Shown piece by piece: positions 8,440-17,152 of a DNA stretch of 25,113 bases (the first letter of the stretch is position 1; each line of letters opens with the position of its first letter). The stretch spans positions 1 to 25,113 of IMG/VR virus record IMGVR_UViG_3300037193_000759; one strand, 5' to 3'. A program made the position numbers and the translations under genes. The notes below the pieces were generated by a model. That model saw only the letters and a program-made list of their open reading frames with translations. It was not told the DNA's origin and did no database searches. The DNA is from a virus.

Positions 8440-9888
8440 GTGGAGCGCACTGAGCTGGGCTGGTTGAAGCATCTGATCGACTGCCATGACCGGGAGAAGA
8501 AGGATCTGAAGCTGCTGGACTCGTATTACGAGGGTGAGCAGCCGCTCAGCTATCTGGCGCCAGAGCTGCAGGCTGAGATGGATGAGCGGATCCGGCAGGT
8601 GGTCATCAACTGGCCCCAGTTGGTTGCCGACTCCATCGAGGAGCGTCTCGATGTGGAGGGTTTCCGTTTCCCGGATGAGGCGGAGGCGGATGAGGAGTTG
8701 TGGCGGATCTGGCAGGCGAACCGGCTAGATGCCAAGAGCCACCAAGGACACCTTGACGCTCTGGTGATGCGCCGCTGCTACGTGATCGTGGGCAGCCGGG
8801 AGGATGATCCGTCGACTCCGTTGATCACGGTTGAGTCGCCGCTGGACGTGTACGCGGAACATGATCCGCGCACGGGTCAGGTGGCTGCGGCGGTGAAGCG
8901 CTGGTGCGAGGAGTACGAGGGCCAATCGCCGGTTGACCACGCCACGCTGTACCTGCCGGAGTCCACCTCTTGGTGGACGAAGGACCGTTCCGGCGAGTGG
9001 GTGGAGGACGTGGGCGACGATGGCGAATCGGTGCGGGATGCCCACGGGCTGGGCGAGGTGCCGGTGGTGCCGCTGGCGAACCGAGCCCGGCTGAAGTGCC
9101 CTGGCGGGGTGTCGGAGTTGAAGGCCGTGATTTCGATCTCGGACGCAGCCTGCAAGGTCGCCACGGACATGATGGTGTCTGCCGAGTACCACGCCACCCC
9201 CCGCCGGGTGGCGTTCGGGTTCGGCGAGGAGGACTTCGTCGACGAGAAGGGCCGCCGTGTCAGCGCGTTCTCGCGGGTGATCGGCCGGATCTGGGCGACG
9301 GAGAAGAACCGCAAGGAAGACGGCGCGGATGTCGTGCAGTTCTCGGAGGCGGATCTGAAGAACTTCCACGACACGATCAACCAGTTGGCCCGGCTAGTGG
9401 CCAGCCTGGCGGGTCTGCCTCCGCACTTCCTGGGCTACGCAACCGAGAACCCTGCGAGCGCGGACGCGATCCGCTCGAGCGAGTCCCGGCTGGTGAAGCG
9501 CGCCGAGCGTAAGCAGCGCGACTGGGGCGAGGCGTGGGAGCAGGTTATGCGTCTGGCGCTGCGCTTCCGCGATGGCGACTGGGATCCGCGGGTGCTGTCG
9601 CTGGAGACGATCTGGCGGGACGCGTCGACTCCAACGATCGCCCAGAAGGCGGACGCCGCAGTCAAACTCCACACGGCGAAGATCGTGCCGTTGCGTCAGA
9701 CCCGCGAAGACATGGGGTACACGCAGGCGCAGATCAAGCGCATGGAGGAGGAGGACGAGGCCGCGGCGGAGGACGCGATGAAGCGGATCCTCGCCGGGGA
9801 CTTCGCCGCTCTGGAGGCCGGTCAGAAGCCGCCGCTGAAGGACGCCGACGAGGATGAGCCGACTCCTGAGCCTGCGGGTGTGTCGTGA
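8440..9888 (+). CDS. Portal protein, SPP1 gp6-like, 482 aa
   Basis: GTG at 8440 after a purine-rich stretch (GAGGTGGG). The N-terminal part contains LLDSYYEGEQPLSYLAPEL, VVINWPQLVADSIEERLDVE and GFRFPDE, the pattern of SPP1 gp6-type portal proteins in actinophages. The middle has ITVESPLDVYAEHDPRTGQV, then a crown/clip region. Residues around FHDTINQLARLVASLAGLPP, HFLGY and NPASADAIRSSESRLVKRAE are the conserved stem region. The protein forms the dodecameric ring through which DNA enters and onto which the neck assembles. The acidic C-terminal tail is common. Order terL-portal-MuF agrees. Confidence 0.93.
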   Translation: MERTELGWLKHLIDCHDREKKDLKLLDSYYEGEQPLSYLAPELQAEMDERIRQVVINWPQLVADSIEERLDVEGFRFPDEAEADEELWRIWQANRLDAKSHQGHLDALVMRRCYVIVGSREDDPSTPLITVESPLDVYAEHDPRTGQVAAAVKRWCEEYEGQSPVDHATLYLPESTSWWTKDRSGEWVEDVGDDGESVRDAHGLGEVPVVPLANRARLKCPGGVSELKAVISISDAACKVATDMMVSAEYHATPRRVAFGFGEEDFVDEKGRRVSAFSRVIGRIWATEKNRKEDGADVVQFSEADLKNFHDTINQLARLVASLAGLPPHFLGYATENPASADAIRSSESRLVKRAERKQRDWGEAWEQVMRLALRFRDGDWDPRVLSLETIWRDASTPTIAQKADAAVKLHTAKIVPLRQTREDMGYTQAQIKRMEEEDEAAAEDAMKRILAGDFAALEAGQKPPLKDADEDEPTPEPAGVS

Positions 9889-10937
9889 CGACGGCGCCGG
9901 AGCGACTGTCGTCCGTCGAGCTGGCTGAGGCCTATTACGTGGCGCAGGCTCGTCTGACGCGTTCGGCGGTGAACCGGGTTCAGGTGTTGTGGCGGGAGTT
10001 GGACTCGCGGGACCTGACGGGCTCGTGGGAGGCCCTGGTGGGGCCGGGCGTGGTGGATGCGGTGGCGGCTGGGCAACTGGCCGCCGCCGCCCAGGCCGAC
10101 CCCTACCTAGATGCCGTGGAGACCGCGGACGGTGGCGAGCCGGATGGTTCGGCTCGTATCCGGGCGGCCACGTTCGCCGGGCATGCGTCGGACGGTAGGG
10201 CTCTGGACACTCTGCTGTATCTGCCGGTCATCACAACGAAGCAGGGCATCGCGGCCGGGCTGTCGGATGTGGACGCGATGATGCGCGGCCTCAATCAGCT
10301 GCTGCGGATGGCGGCCACGCAGGTAACGGACGCCGGCCGCACAGCGGTGGGCGCGGGGATTGCGGGCAGGCGCACGATTCAGGGCTACATCCGGATTGCG
10401 GCGGCTCCGTGCTGCGCGCGCTGCGCGATCCTGTCGGGCAAAGAGTTCGGTTGGAACCGCGGGTTTCAGAGGCATCCTCGCTGTGACTGCATCCACATGC
10501 CGGCCACGCTGATTGCTCGCGGTCGAGGCGGACGCGGGCGTCCTGCCTTGCCGGACAGACCAGGGATGGTGACGAACGCCGGCGACTACTTCCGCAGCCT
10601 GTCGCGGCGGGAGCAGGACCGCATCTTCACTGTTGCTGGCGCCCGGGCGATCCGTGACGGCGCGGACATCACGTCGATCGTGAACGCGCGGCGCGGCATG
10701 TACGCCGCGTCGGCCTACGGCCGCCGACTGCGGGCAACCCGTGAGGGGGCGACGACACGCGGCGCGTTCTACCGCTCGGAGCGGGCCCGCGCCATCGCCC
10801 GCGGCCAGGTTCCGGCGACCATCGGTCGGGCCTACCGGCTGCGGACGCCGCGGCTTATGCCCGAAGAGATTTACAGGCTTGCCGGATCTCGCGATGAGGC
10901 CATCGCGATGCTCCGGCGCTTCGGCTACATCGACTAG
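9885..10937 (+). CDS. MuF-like minor head (capsid maturation) protein, 350 aa
   Basis: GTG at 9885 overlaps the portal stop by 4 bases. The N-terminal half is helical. The diagnostic segment at residues 174-206 (AAPCCARCAILSGKEFGWNR then GFQRHPRCDCIHMP) has a Cys cluster (176, 177, 180) and HPRCDC (197-202). This is the Mu gpF-type domain found in phage proteins encoded just after the portal. These proteins are packaged in small numbers in the procapsid and may be injected with the DNA. The C-terminal part (RRGMYAASAYGRRLRATREG, MPEEIYRLAGSRDEAIAMLR) is basic. No separate toxin domain is visible. Confidence 0.88.
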   Translation: MTTAPERLSSVELAEAYYVAQARLTRSAVNRVQVLWRELDSRDLTGSWEALVGPGVVDAVAAGQLAAAAQADPYLDAVETADGGEPDGSARIRAATFAGHASDGRALDTLLYLPVITTKQGIAAGLSDVDAMMRGLNQLLRMAATQVTDAGRTAVGAGIAGRRTIQGYIRIAAAPCCARCAILSGKEFGWNRGFQRHPRCDCIHMPATLIARGRGGRGRPALPDRPGMVTNAGDYFRSLSRREQDRIFTVAGARAIRDGADITSIVNARRGMYAASAYGRRLRATREGATTRGAFYRSERARAIARGQVPATIGRAYRLRTPRLMPEEIYRLAGSRDEAIAMLRRFGYID

Positions 10938-11000: not shown

Positions 11001-11684
11001 ATGCACAACACCCGTAGTAGCTGGCTGCCTGCCGCCCAGAGCGCGGGCTGGTTCCGGCTGAACCGTCACGACGACCCCGAACCCACCGACCCGGCACCGG
11101 AAGACCCGGAGCCGACGCCGGAGGGCGATCCGGAGCCCGATCCCGAGGGCGCCGACAAGCTCGGCGACGCCGGGAAGAAGGCGCTGGACAAGATGAAGGC
11201 CGAGCGGGCGGCGGCGAAGAGGGCGGCGGCCGAGGAGAAGAAGCGCGCCGACGAACTGGCCCGCAAGGTGGCCGAGTTCGAGGACCGCGACAAGTCCGAA
11301 CTGGAGAAGGCCACCAGCCGTGCGGAGGCCGCTGCGAAGCGCGCCGAGGCGGCGACGGCTCGCGCTGTGCGGGCTGAAGTGAAGGCTGCGGCCAGCGAGT
11401 TCGCCGACCCGGATGACGCGCTCGCGCACCTCAACGGCAAGTTCGCCCAGTACGCCAACGACTCTGGGGAGATCGACACTGAGGCGATCGTCTCGGATCT
11501 GTCCGATCTCCTGGAGCGGAAGCCGCATTTGAAGAGGCAGGCTCCCGCCCCGGAGGCTCCGAAGGCACCGAAGCCGGATCCGTCACAGGGGCCGCGCAAG
11601 GAGCCGGCGCCGGTCGACTACCGCAACGCGTCCCGCGCGGACATTCAGAAGGCGGCGGCCGAGCTGGGGGTCCGCCTGCGCTGA
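11001..11684 (+). CDS. Capsid scaffolding protein, 227 aa
   Basis: ATG at 11001 after ACGGGAGAC. The product is typical of scaffolds: an acidic Pro-rich N-terminal region, then a long charged coiled coil (about residues 50-130, rich in Ala, Glu, Lys and Arg) and a Pro-rich basic C-terminal region with RNASRADIQKAAAELGVRLR. The N-terminus contains WFRLNRHD at 17-24, nearly the same as WFRLDRHD at 10-17 of the major capsid protein. The DNA is also similar there. Scaffold guides capsid shell assembly and is removed on maturation. The shared motif next to a Prp-like protease gene suggests N-terminal processing. Confidence 0.9.
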   Translation: MHNTRSSWLPAAQSAGWFRLNRHDDPEPTDPAPEDPEPTPEGDPEPDPEGADKLGDAGKKALDKMKAERAAAKRAAAEEKKRADELARKVAEFEDRDKSELEKATSRAEAAAKRAEAATARAVRAEVKAAASEFADPDDALAHLNGKFAQYANDSGEIDTEAIVSDLSDLLERKPHLKRQAPAPEAPKAPKPDPSQGPRKEPAPVDYRNASRADIQKAAAELGVRLR

Positions 11685-11881
11685 TGATCCGTATCCGTGC
11701 CCGGCTGGGCGCCGGCCGGACCTCGATCGAGGTCGACGGCCACGAGGGCCATGTCGAAGACGGGCGGGTCTGCGCCGCCATCACGGCGATCACCCAAACC
11801 GCGCTGCTGGGGCTGGAGCAGTACGCCCTGCAGTTCCCGGACCTCGTGTCCGTCGAGATCACAACCGAGGAGAACTCATGA
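11684..11881 (+). CDS. Prp-like cysteine protease, 65 aa
   Basis: ATG at 11684 shares one base with the scaffold stop (TGATG), so translation is coupled. The protein shows the Prp family pattern (ribosomal-processing cysteine protease): an N-terminal strand (MIRIRARL), then SIEVDGHEGHVEDG with the catalytic His20, then VCAAITAITQTALLGLEQ with the catalytic Cys30. The His and Cys are spaced much as in Prp, where GHA and CAAVS are the conserved sites. It is shorter than most cellular Prp proteins (about 105-110 residues). In Staphylococcus aureus, Prp removes the N-terminal extension of ribosomal protein L27 and also trims phage 80alpha scaffold and capsid. Here the gene lies between scaffold and capsid, so I infer it processes both. 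Confidence 0.8.
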   Translation: MIRIRARLGAGRTSIEVDGHEGHVEDGRVCAAITAITQTALLGLEQYALQFPDLVSVEITTEENS

Positions 11882-13206
11882 CCACCCTGACCGCCCGCCG
11901 GTCGTGGTTCCGGCTCGACCGGCACGACGTCCGGTCCACCCTGCCGGCCGCGATCCGCGCCATCATGCAGAACGGCCTGCTCGACGGCATGTTCCGCGAG
12001 TCGCTGATGCCGGAGCTGCTGTTCCCGCAGATCGCGGACATCGAGCCGTGGCAGGGAGCCAAGGGCGACACGAAGATCATGACCCGGAACGGGCTCATGA
12101 CCCCGGACCCCACCCCGACGACCGGTTCGGACGCTTCCACGGGCTCGTACAGCATCGAGCAGTGGACCGTGACGATGGACCAGTACGGCAAGTCCATCGA
12201 CACAGACCTGCTGCAGTCGTCGATGACGCAGGCGTCGAAGTACCTCAACGACGTGTCCCGGCTCGGCATTCACGCCGGGCAGACCATCAACCAGCTCGCC
12301 CGGAACAAGCTTTACAAGGGCTACGCGGGCGGGCGCACCTACTGCCGCACTGCGGGCACCTCGGACACGTCGATTGTGGTCGCGTCCACCGACGGCTTCA
12401 CCCACAAGCTGGTGAACGGCGTCCCGACCGCCGTGTCCGCGTCGAACGCGCTGGACATCACCATCGAGGGCGTCGCCAACACCGTCACCGGCGTCGACAC
12501 GGGTACAGGCACCCTGACCCTGGGCACGGCGCGCGTCGACGTCGTAGGCGACTCGGTGGTGTCTTCGCAGGCCCCGTACTCGGTGCGCGCGGGCACATCG
12601 AACGACTCGGCGTTCGACCTGAGCGCAGGCGACCTGATCACCTTCGCGCACTTCCGGGCTGCCGTAGCGCGGCTGCGGCGCATGTTCGTGCCTCCGGCCG
12701 AGGGCGGCAACTACATCGCCCACATCGACAGCGTGACGGAGTCGCAGCTGTTCGAGGACACCGAGTTCCAGAACCTGTACCAGGGGCGAGCGGACTCGTC
12801 GACGTACCGGGATCTGGCGATCGGCGTGTTCGGCGGCATCGTGTGGGTGCGCAACGAGGTCGTGCCATACCTGACCACTGCGACCACCGGGTACGAGGAC
12901 CTGACCACGACGGTGCACCGGCCGATCGTGGTGGGTGCGGGCGCGCTGATCGCGGCGCCGTTCGAGAACCCGGCAGGTCTGCTGCGGGAGACCGGCGTTT
13001 CGGACGTCCCCGAGATCACCATGATCAACGTCGCGCCGGGTGTCGACGTGGCTCGGATCGTGCGTCCGCCGCAGGACCGCTATCAGCAGAACGTGTCCAC
13101 GACCTGGTCGTGGGTCGGCGACTACGGCGTCCCCTCGGACTCGCTGGCAAACGGCGACTCGGCCCTGTTCAAGCGGGCCGTGCTGCTGGAGCACTCCGCG
13201 AACTGA
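11878..13206 (+). CDS. Major capsid protein (HK97-fold, probable), 442 aa
   Basis: ATG at 11878 overlaps the previous stop by 4 bases and follows GAGGAGA (11867-11873). The N-terminus includes WFRLDRHD (10-17), shared with the scaffold. LLFPQIADIEPWQGAKGDTK, TMDQYGKSIDTDLLQSSM and NDVSRLGIHAGQTINQLARN resemble the P22-coat/N4-gp56-like group of capsid proteins, with an inserted beta domain near residues 155-260 (rich in Thr, Val, Asp). The late part has AHIDSVTESQLFEDTEFQNL and HRPIVVGAGALIAAPFENPA. It would form the icosahedral shell. Size and position after the scaffold support the call. The subfamily is less certain. Confidence 0.9.
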   Translation: MTTLTARRSWFRLDRHDVRSTLPAAIRAIMQNGLLDGMFRESLMPELLFPQIADIEPWQGAKGDTKIMTRNGLMTPDPTPTTGSDASTGSYSIEQWTVTMDQYGKSIDTDLLQSSMTQASKYLNDVSRLGIHAGQTINQLARNKLYKGYAGGRTYCRTAGTSDTSIVVASTDGFTHKLVNGVPTAVSASNALDITIEGVANTVTGVDTGTGTLTLGTARVDVVGDSVVSSQAPYSVRAGTSNDSAFDLSAGDLITFAHFRAAVARLRRMFVPPAEGGNYIAHIDSVTESQLFEDTEFQNLYQGRADSSTYRDLAIGVFGGIVWVRNEVVPYLTTATTGYEDLTTTVHRPIVVGAGALIAAPFENPAGLLRETGVSDVPEITMINVAPGVDVARIVRPPQDRYQQNVSTTWSWVGDYGVPSDSLANGDSALFKRAVLLEHSAN

Positions 13207-15852: not shown

Positions 15853-16332
15853 ATGTCCGACGTGATCAACGACGGCAAGACCCGGGTCTACTGGGTGACC
15901 ACCATCGCGAACATCGCGGCGCCGACGGTCGCCGAGTTGAACGCCGGGCTGGACTTCACGGCCCGCATCACCCCGGACGGTCTGAACATCCCGGCGGAGA
16001 CCGCCGACGTCGACAACTCCAGCCTGGCGTCGACGTTCACCACCAACCGGGCTGGCCGCCGCAGCTTCAGCCCCGAGGTGACGTTCAAGCGGGGCGACAG
16101 CGCTGGCGACGACCTGCCGTGGACGACGCTCACCTACCAGACCCTCGGCTACCTCGTCGTGCGGCGCGTCCTCGCCTACACGACGGCCTGGGCTGCCACG
16201 CAGAAGTGCGAGGTCTACCCGGTCGAGTGCGGCGAGAGGAACAGCATCCCGCCGGCCCCGAACGAGGTCGCCAAGTTCACGAGTTCGATGAAGCTTCGGG
16301 ATGAGCCGAACACCAGCGCGACGGTGGCCTGA
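15853..16332 (+). CDS. Major tail protein, 159 aa
   Basis: ATG at 15853 after GAAAGGAG (15837-15844), one of the strongest ribosome binding sites here, as expected for an abundant protein. The protein is beta-rich: KTRVYWVTTIANIAAPTVAE, LDFTARITPDGLNI, then RRSFSPEVTFKRGDS and LTYQTLGYLVVRRVLAY. The pattern (start with a target strand, then AP-TVAELNAG-D) is characteristic of actinophage major tail proteins. It forms the tail tube. It precedes the tail chaperone genes, as usual. Confidence 0.9.
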   Translation: MSDVINDGKTRVYWVTTIANIAAPTVAELNAGLDFTARITPDGLNIPAETADVDNSSLASTFTTNRAGRRSFSPEVTFKRGDSAGDDLPWTTLTYQTLGYLVVRRVLAYTTAWAATQKCEVYPVECGERNSIPPAPNEVAKFTSSMKLRDEPNTSATVA

Positions 16333-16847
16333 TGCCCGATATCAAGGACATCCTCGCGAAGGCGCGCCCGCGGGAGCACACGATCCGTATCTGCCTTGCC
16401 GGTGATGTGGCGGCCGAGGTGGAGCGGCTGGAGGCGGAGCTCGCGGCGACCCAGTCGTGGGTGCAGCAGTCGATCGCCGAGGCCCACCCGGGTATCGAGA
16501 TCGCCGAGGAGATCGCCGCTGCCCGGGAGCGGATGCGCGAGGCCGAGGTCGCGTTCACGTTCCGCGCCCTCGGTGCGAAGGCGTGGAGTGACCTCGTCGC
16601 GCAGCATCCGAGCGAGAAGGAAGAGGAGGCGTGGGACGACGAGTCCCTCGCCCCGGCGCTCGTGGCCGCGTCCGCTGTCGACCCGGTGATGACGCCGGAG
16701 GACGTGGCAGCCCTGTTTGAGCAGATCAACATGGGGCAGCGGCAGGAGCTGATCCAAGCGGCGTGGACGGTGAACGGGGAGGCAACGAGCGTCCCTTTCG
16801 CGTTGCACGCCTCCGCGATCCTCGCCTCCCGCACCGAAGGGAAGTAG
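16332..16847 (+). CDS. Tail assembly chaperone G, 171 aa
   Basis: ATG at 16332 shares one base with the previous stop (TGATG). The product is acidic and helical (AAEVERLEAELAATQSWVQQ; AAARERMREAEVAFTFRALG) with AKAWSDLVAQHPSEKEEEAW and TPEDVAALFEQINMGQRQEL. The KAW-DL---HP pattern and the later helix are typical of actinophage G-type tail chaperones. These keep the tape measure protein soluble and help tube polymerisation. The ribosome most often stops at 16847; a fraction shifts frame at CCCTTTC to make the GT form. Confidence 0.88.
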   Translation: MPDIKDILAKARPREHTIRICLAGDVAAEVERLEAELAATQSWVQQSIAEAHPGIEIAEEIAAARERMREAEVAFTFRALGAKAWSDLVAQHPSEKEEEAWDDESLAPALVAASAVDPVMTPEDVAALFEQINMGQRQELIQAAWTVNGEATSVPFALHASAILASRTEGK

Positions 16848-17152
16848 AGACTGCCCGGGCGTGGGGCGTGCCTCGGTCGATCTTCCTGGGCCGTCCTTGG
16901 CCGCAGCCCGGCGAGCCGCTGTGGACTGATGAGGACCGGGAGTGGGCGCTGGCCCTCGCGCACGTCGAGGCCGATGTGTGCCCGGACTGCCGCCAGCCCT
17001 GGAGCGACGCCACCGACGCGAAGAGCGAGGGCCAGTGGGAGGCGCACCTGGTGCGCTGCCACGCCTGCCACACAGCTGCCCGCACCGTGGGCCAGTTCGA
17101 GACCGGCGGCGGCGATATGCGCGGCCTGCACGTCAACTTGACCAGGGGGTGA
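16332..17152 (+). CDS. Tail assembly chaperone GT by -1 frameshift, 273 aa
   Basis: Joins 16332..16799 to 16799..17152. The second frame is -1 relative to the first, is open from 16721, and ends at TGA 17150-17152. The fusion reads ...ATSVPF then RVARLRDPRLPHRREVETAR and AWGVPRSIFLGR. The T part carries RAWGVPRSIFLG, DREWALALAHVEADVCPDC and VRCHACHTAARTV, a zinc-ribbon-like pair (CPDC, CHAC) usual for the T domain in actinophages. Conserved G/GT production is needed for correct tail length. A GTG at 16868 could start the T part alone, but it lacks a clear ribosome binding site, so the frameshift is preferred. Confidence 0.8.
16793..16799 (+). other. Programmed -1 ribosomal frameshift site CCCTTTC
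   Basis: The heptamer fits X XXY YYZ with the zero frame read as GTC CCT TTC. After slipping back one base the two tRNAs re-pair with CCC and TTT, both with good first-two-base pairing. It lies 48 bases before the G stop and inside the stretch where the -1 frame is open. No other X XXY YYZ heptamer was found between 16721 and 16847. No stimulatory RNA structure was established. Confidence 0.75.

Follow-up and report, generated by a model that had tools for sequence, protein, structure and literature searches.

A half-size Prp-like protein encoded between the scaffold and capsid genes of actinophages is a candidate protease for their matched leaders

The head-gene cluster of the viral record IMGVR_UViG_3300037193_000759 (the window, here, is the whole stretch analysed, positions 1 to 25,113 of that record, 25,113 nucleotides) raises the question of whether a protein of 65 residues, encoded between a scaffold and a capsid gene whose products begin with nearly the same motif, is a protease that cuts both of them. 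The portal gene (8440-9888) is followed, on the plus strand, by genes for a 350-residue minor-head-type protein (9885-10937), a 227-residue head scaffolding protein with an N-terminal leader (11001-11684; phrog_4708 head scaffolding, E 1e-22), the 65-residue protein, a putative cysteine protease here called mini-Prp (11684-11881), and a 442-residue major capsid protein (11878-13206; phrog_1357 major head protein, E 7e-23). Matches of the scaffold to PF06810 (Phage_scaffold, E 2e-4) and of the capsid to TIGR04387 (N4-gp56 family, 48 bits against a cut-off of 60) both fell below their cut-offs. The scaffold stop shares one base with the mini-Prp start codon in a TGATG (11682-11686, plus strand), and the capsid start codon overlaps the mini-Prp stop in an ATGA (11878-11881, plus strand); the small frame thus overlaps both of its neighbours, in keeping with the translational coupling to both that the original prediction had stated, and the GH (residues 19-20) and the CAA starting at Cys30 were also correctly placed. 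The leader motif reads WFRLNRHD in the scaffold (residues 17-24; 11049-11072, plus strand) and WFRLDRHD in the capsid (residues 10-17; 11905-11928, plus strand). A relaxed form of it, scanned through all six frames of the window, matched at 11049 and 11905 only, in agreement with the earlier claim that nothing else there carries it, and a scan of the initial 50 kb of Streptomyces phage Kromp likewise placed it in scaffold and capsid only. Elsewhere in the window, the 141-residue product of 2518-2943 has the gamma DNA-binding domain of FtsK (PF09397, E 8e-13) and no motor domain, and two frames (16332-16847 and 16763-17152) overlap at the place occupied in Kromp by a frameshifted pair of tail assembly chaperones, so that 16332-17152 probably contains a programmed frameshift.

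The proposed membership of the Prp family could be confirmed by profile search, as mini-Prp matched PF04327 (Peptidase_Prp) with an E-value of 5e-6 and a marginal 27.1 bits against the Pfam cut-off of 27. The Kromp copy scored 28.7 bits, and a search of the same region at the DNA level gave 25.5 bits, just under the cut-off. The protein also matched PHROG 4478 ('peptidase'), and it scored far under the cut-off of the NCBIfam Prp equivalogs. A search of the PDB with the single sequence gave weak matches only; a profile of the mini-Prp family matched the solved Prps 2g0i, 4peo/7kld (the Staphylococcus aureus enzyme, SaPrp, being among the matches) and 2idl, and hhalign of the family against Firmicutes Prps, drawn from both hosts and phages, reached 98.9%. 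Since the matches to the solved structures fell in two separate stretches at the two ends, mini-Prp looks like a Prp without its middle. The AlphaFold monomer is a beta-beta-alpha arrangement, a hairpin with one long helix (pLDDT 85, pTM 0.60), for which Foldseek returned no meaningful match in the PDB.

His20 (11741-11743, plus strand) and Cys30 (11771-11773, plus strand) are the counterparts of SaPrp His22 and Cys34; both, and the Gly before the His (G19), are invariant in A2 and present in 95 of 95 distinct relatives, although the dyad pattern by which these were collected fixes most of this. The residue at Cys+4 was Ser or Thr in all 95, where the pattern also permitted Ala. SaPrp requires His22, Cys34, Gly21, Asp31 and Ser38, and Asp31 is essential for its active-site loop (PMC9405229). 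No acidic residue was found at the equivalent of Asp31 (Cys-3) in any of the 95 mini-Prps of this dyad-pattern set, Gly or Ser occurring there instead. In the hhalign comparison with Firmicutes Prps two residues are deleted between the hinge Gly and the Cys, the His-Cys spacing being 10-11 residues against 12 in SaPrp, and the length across relatives is 62-65 residues. Taken together, these comparisons support mini-Prp being kin of the Prp family, of half the size, lacking Asp31 and apparently also the central part of the fold. The idea of a Prp enzyme is therefore upheld as regards the His-Cys pair, but has to be qualified as regards its size and the loss of a residue that is essential in SaPrp.

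This loss, and the absence of the latter half of the fold, would also suit a protein that is mainly a leader-binding assembly chaperone, joining nascent scaffold and capsid, with cutting slow, absent or incidental. SaPrp has itself been proposed as a chaperone of L27, partly since it is encoded directly upstream of its partner (PMC9405229), and phage 80alpha needs the N-terminus of its scaffold but not the cutting of it (PMC5744158). However, every collected relative retains the catalytic pair of Cys and His, and the last residue of the motif before the predicted cut stays His or Phe, neither of which a pure binder would need, and we consider a chiefly chaperone role unlikely.

If mini-Prp acts on the two leaders, protease and motif should occur together, and the distribution of both among relatives agrees with this. 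Searched with the small protein, viral contigs yielded 51 loci and bacterial genomes 19 actinobacterial loci (Streptomyces, Nonomuraea, Sphaerimonospora, Actinoallomurus, Glycomyces, Catenulispora and Streptosporangiaceae), and in all complete loci the order was scaffold, Prp, capsid, with the motif kept in both substrates. Capsid homologues were also collected with a capsid profile, so that loci were not chosen by the protease; among the 69 of these with more than 1.2 kb upstream, some on contigs common to the set of 51, every one had the protease and both motifs (the Prp being recognised by pattern in 68 and by reading in L195), and the survey turned up no locus with only the motif or only the protease. 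Because both proteins carry the motif in all of these capsid-collected loci, its sharing by scaffold and capsid is far beyond chance. In one locus (L309:2580-3001) a frameshift interrupts the Prp frame near the catalytic His and both substrate motifs are intact; it was rejected as a case of motif without protease as the reading frame is present but frameshifted, whether through an error in sequencing or because the gene is a recent pseudogene. In another (L304) the scaffold motif sits in a shifted frame.

More distant capsid homologues, found with the capsid of Komagataeibacter phage phiKX1, gave 66 usable loci, and neither protease nor motif was present in any of them, though not every locus had an identifiable scaffold; eight matches to the Prp pattern among these distant relatives were discarded as spurious on account of their unrelated frames or positions. 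None of nine further relatives, two with capsids that share 50% identity with the query capsid and one with 43%, had the protease, the capsid leader or, where a scaffold was available, the scaffold motif. When the capsid tree is computed with the leader left out, two changes account for the protease, and a single change is also compatible, so that the strict association represents only one or two independent evolutionary events. A Prp gene thus lies beside scaffold and capsid genes that both have a matched N-terminal site, which supports the protease and its two substrates as a conserved unit; to this extent the cassette first proposed stands, the cleavage itself being a prediction.

A second candidate for the head protease lies within the same cluster. 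The counterpart in Kromp (gp4) of the 350-residue protein directly upstream of the scaffold is annotated 'capsid maturation protease', and phrog_1522 ('head maturation protease') matches 9885-10937 at E 4e-71, so that this protein could be the enzyme, the motif its site and mini-Prp an accessory. The phrog_1522 match, however, covers positions 25-346 of 591, Pfam gives there only a weak VG15 (PF25310, E 0.0024, below the cut-off), and the protein has no NCBIfam or PDB match. Moreover, Firmicutes phages with their own Prp have a 'minor head protein' at a comparable place together with a separate peptidase. The label of protease may have been carried over in annotation, and it seems very unlikely that the upstream protein is the protease that reads the motif.

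The leaders themselves suggest where mini-Prp would cut. In the loci gathered by pattern, which imposes part of the result, Phe at P6, Arg at P2 and His or Phe at P1 were fixed or nearly so, the Arg being encoded by five codons, and the residues directly upstream of the motif varied freely. P4 was Leu, Ile or Val and P1' was Asp, Ala, Asn or Glu; Phe occupied P1 in the scaffolds of five distinct loci (FDLARF'D, FDLRRF'D, FNLACF'D). When FRLDRH'D is set beside the Prp sites FNLQLF'D and FNLQRF'A, Phe falls at P6, Leu at P4 and His at P1. The motif had originally been called unlike the staphylococcal one; it is divergent, but this alignment suggests that it is not unrelated. In SaPrp the P1 Phe stacks on His22, the leucines at P4 and P6 lie at the dimer interface and Asp31 contacts the Gln at P3 of the substrate (PMC9405229). 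This Gln is missing from the actinophage motifs, in which P3 is free. The leader peptide bearing the predicted P6, P4 and P1 positions is SWFRLDRHDVRST. A permutation test of the register between motif and L27 site gave 0.046 with the register fixed and 0.55 with registers free, and the shared hydrophobic P6, Leu P4 and aromatic P1 are suggestive only as to register.

Better support for the H16/D17 bond comes from the capsids of relatives that have no Prp, most of which begin at the position matching D17, with M1AIANFP or M1SVNAFP opposite D17VRSTLP. The capsids of L312 and L317, sisters of the Prp clade, start at that same place, that of L315 is one residue longer, and those of L321-L323 are about three residues longer. 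On these comparisons, mini-Prp probably cuts both leaders at H|D, with predicted cuts between H23 (11067-11069) and D24 (11070-11072) of the scaffold and between H16 (11923-11925) and D17 (11926-11928) of the capsid, both on the plus strand. The AlphaFold model of the capsid had a pLDDT of 60, with the N-terminal 128 residues mostly below 50. Scored for scaffold against capsid, W-F versus W-x-F spacing gave 8 loci with both, 70 with neither and 4 mixed, and tree-corrected pairs did not reach significance for covariation. In a small group of loci, comprising the S. scabiei prophage and its relatives (L017, L019, L055, L109, L110, L131, L134 and L135), the motif occurs twice in a row at the capsid N-terminus (WFRLDRHD...WFDLGRHD), a pattern that resembles the duplication of a removable leader.

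Joint occurrence of scaffold and capsid leaders is also what would be expected of a tag for scaffold-capsid assembly or portal docking that has nothing to do with proteolysis, the Prp-like gene then acting elsewhere. Against this, both leaders are missing from every Prp-less relative checked, no protein other than scaffold and capsid has the motif in the window or in the part of Kromp that was scanned, and the equivalent leaders of Firmicutes phages are recognisable Prp sites. The hosts also offer the enzyme no leader on L27 to cut: in 8 of 8 actinobacterial hosts examined L27 starts MAHKKG, and in each of these genomes the mini-Prp profile had exactly one match, the prophage copy. This accords with the earlier statement that L27 of actinobacteria is not known to need such cutting. 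PF04327 itself was present in 2 of 395 genomes of the class, S. scabiei, where the match is the prophage copy, and G394, where the gene again lies between motif-bearing scaffold and capsid genes. As these hosts have no L27 leader and the only Prp is that of the prophage, the scaffold and capsid pair is the natural target, and a tag unconnected with proteolysis appears highly improbable.

The arrangement resembles that of S. aureus Prp and phage 80alpha (MEROPS C108), in which one Cys-His protease acts on near-identical N-terminal leaders of scaffold and capsid, as mini-Prp is predicted to do; in the proposed register the sites would also have the hydrophobic P6, Leu P4, aromatic P1 and small P1' in common. 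S. aureus Prp, however, is host-encoded, serves L27, is about 106 residues long and has Asp31 and a substrate with Gln at P3, whereas mini-Prp is phage-encoded, has 62-65 residues, lacks Asp31 and its P3 Gln, and belongs to phages whose hosts, where checked, have no L27 leader. Nor is the layout unique, which corrects the original reading. Some phages of Firmicutes have their own Prp-like gene in the head cluster and a matched site at the start of scaffold and capsid, as in Acutalibacter phage Fontainebleau (scaffold FNLQLF'DDGG, capsid FNLQLF'DTDA), Lactococcus phage PLgT-1 (LNLQLF'AGG, FNLQRF'AGD), Oenococcus phage Krappator149 (LNLQRF'AES, INLQRF'ADI) and Latilactobacillus phage TMW 1.1447 P1 (MKLQLF'ADG, MNLQHF'ADI); their peptidases differ in being about 95-109 residues long, encoded upstream of the scaffold, and accompanied by L27-type sites (NLQLF'A/D). 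The hosts of these phages are expected to have a Prp of their own as well. A direct relative with no essential difference, Kromp gp6, is 77% identical to mini-Prp, occupies the same place between genes with both motifs, and is annotated 'protease'; the literature searched yielded no report on its substrates and none on the actinophage motif pair. Kromp has been propagated on S. coelicolor M145 and purified in CsCl (PMC13175485), and its capsid chain, if cut as predicted, would begin with DIRTT. The protease of Streptococcus phage Cp-1 is similarly phage-encoded and in clan CR with Prp, and it removes the N-terminal 48 residues of the major head protein (PMC12445089), but the Cp-1 genome has no match to PF04327. 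A phage-encoded clan CR protease that cuts a head protein was therefore already known from Cp-1 (PMC12445089), as was the 'protease' label of Kromp gp6; what is new is an enzyme of half the size that has no Asp31, a recognition code that would be altered, and hosts without an L27 leader.

We regard it as likely, on the sequence evidence, that scaffold, Prp and capsid form a self-contained head-maturation cassette in which mini-Prp clips both leaders. Translational coupling between scaffold and capsid would yield a protein of 62-65 residues with His20 and Cys30, which would recognise (W)(x)F-x-L-x-R-H/F, a leader bound in extended form at the front of scaffold and capsid alike, by its alternating positions (Phe at P6, Leu at P4, Arg at P2, and His or Phe at P1). 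From what is known of the family, Cys30, aided by His20, would attack after the P1 residue. Phage 80alpha requires its scaffold leader to be intact, and neither the scaffold nor the capsid cut is needed for its viability (PMC5744158), so that the leader may be an assembly handle first, to be trimmed later; as capsid cutting is dispensable in that phage, it does not follow that cutting is needed for maturation here. We lean, with rather less confidence, towards the fuller reading that these proteins are a half-size Prp lineage, among the smallest free-standing cysteine proteases and probably dimeric, devoted solely to capsid assembly, in hosts without an L27 leader, and that in this lineage Asp31 and the P3 Gln were lost together to leave the code F-x-L-x-R-H|D.

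Given that 80alpha manages without the cuts, the actinophage cassette would offer a clean system for asking what purpose Prp-type leaders have on scaffold and capsid in the first place, and, as the enzyme has no known host substrate, its deletion or inactivation should affect head assembly only. It would also show how far a protease fold can shrink and yet keep a recognition code for two substrates, and it puts a natural enzyme-substrate pair on offer for peptide tagging.
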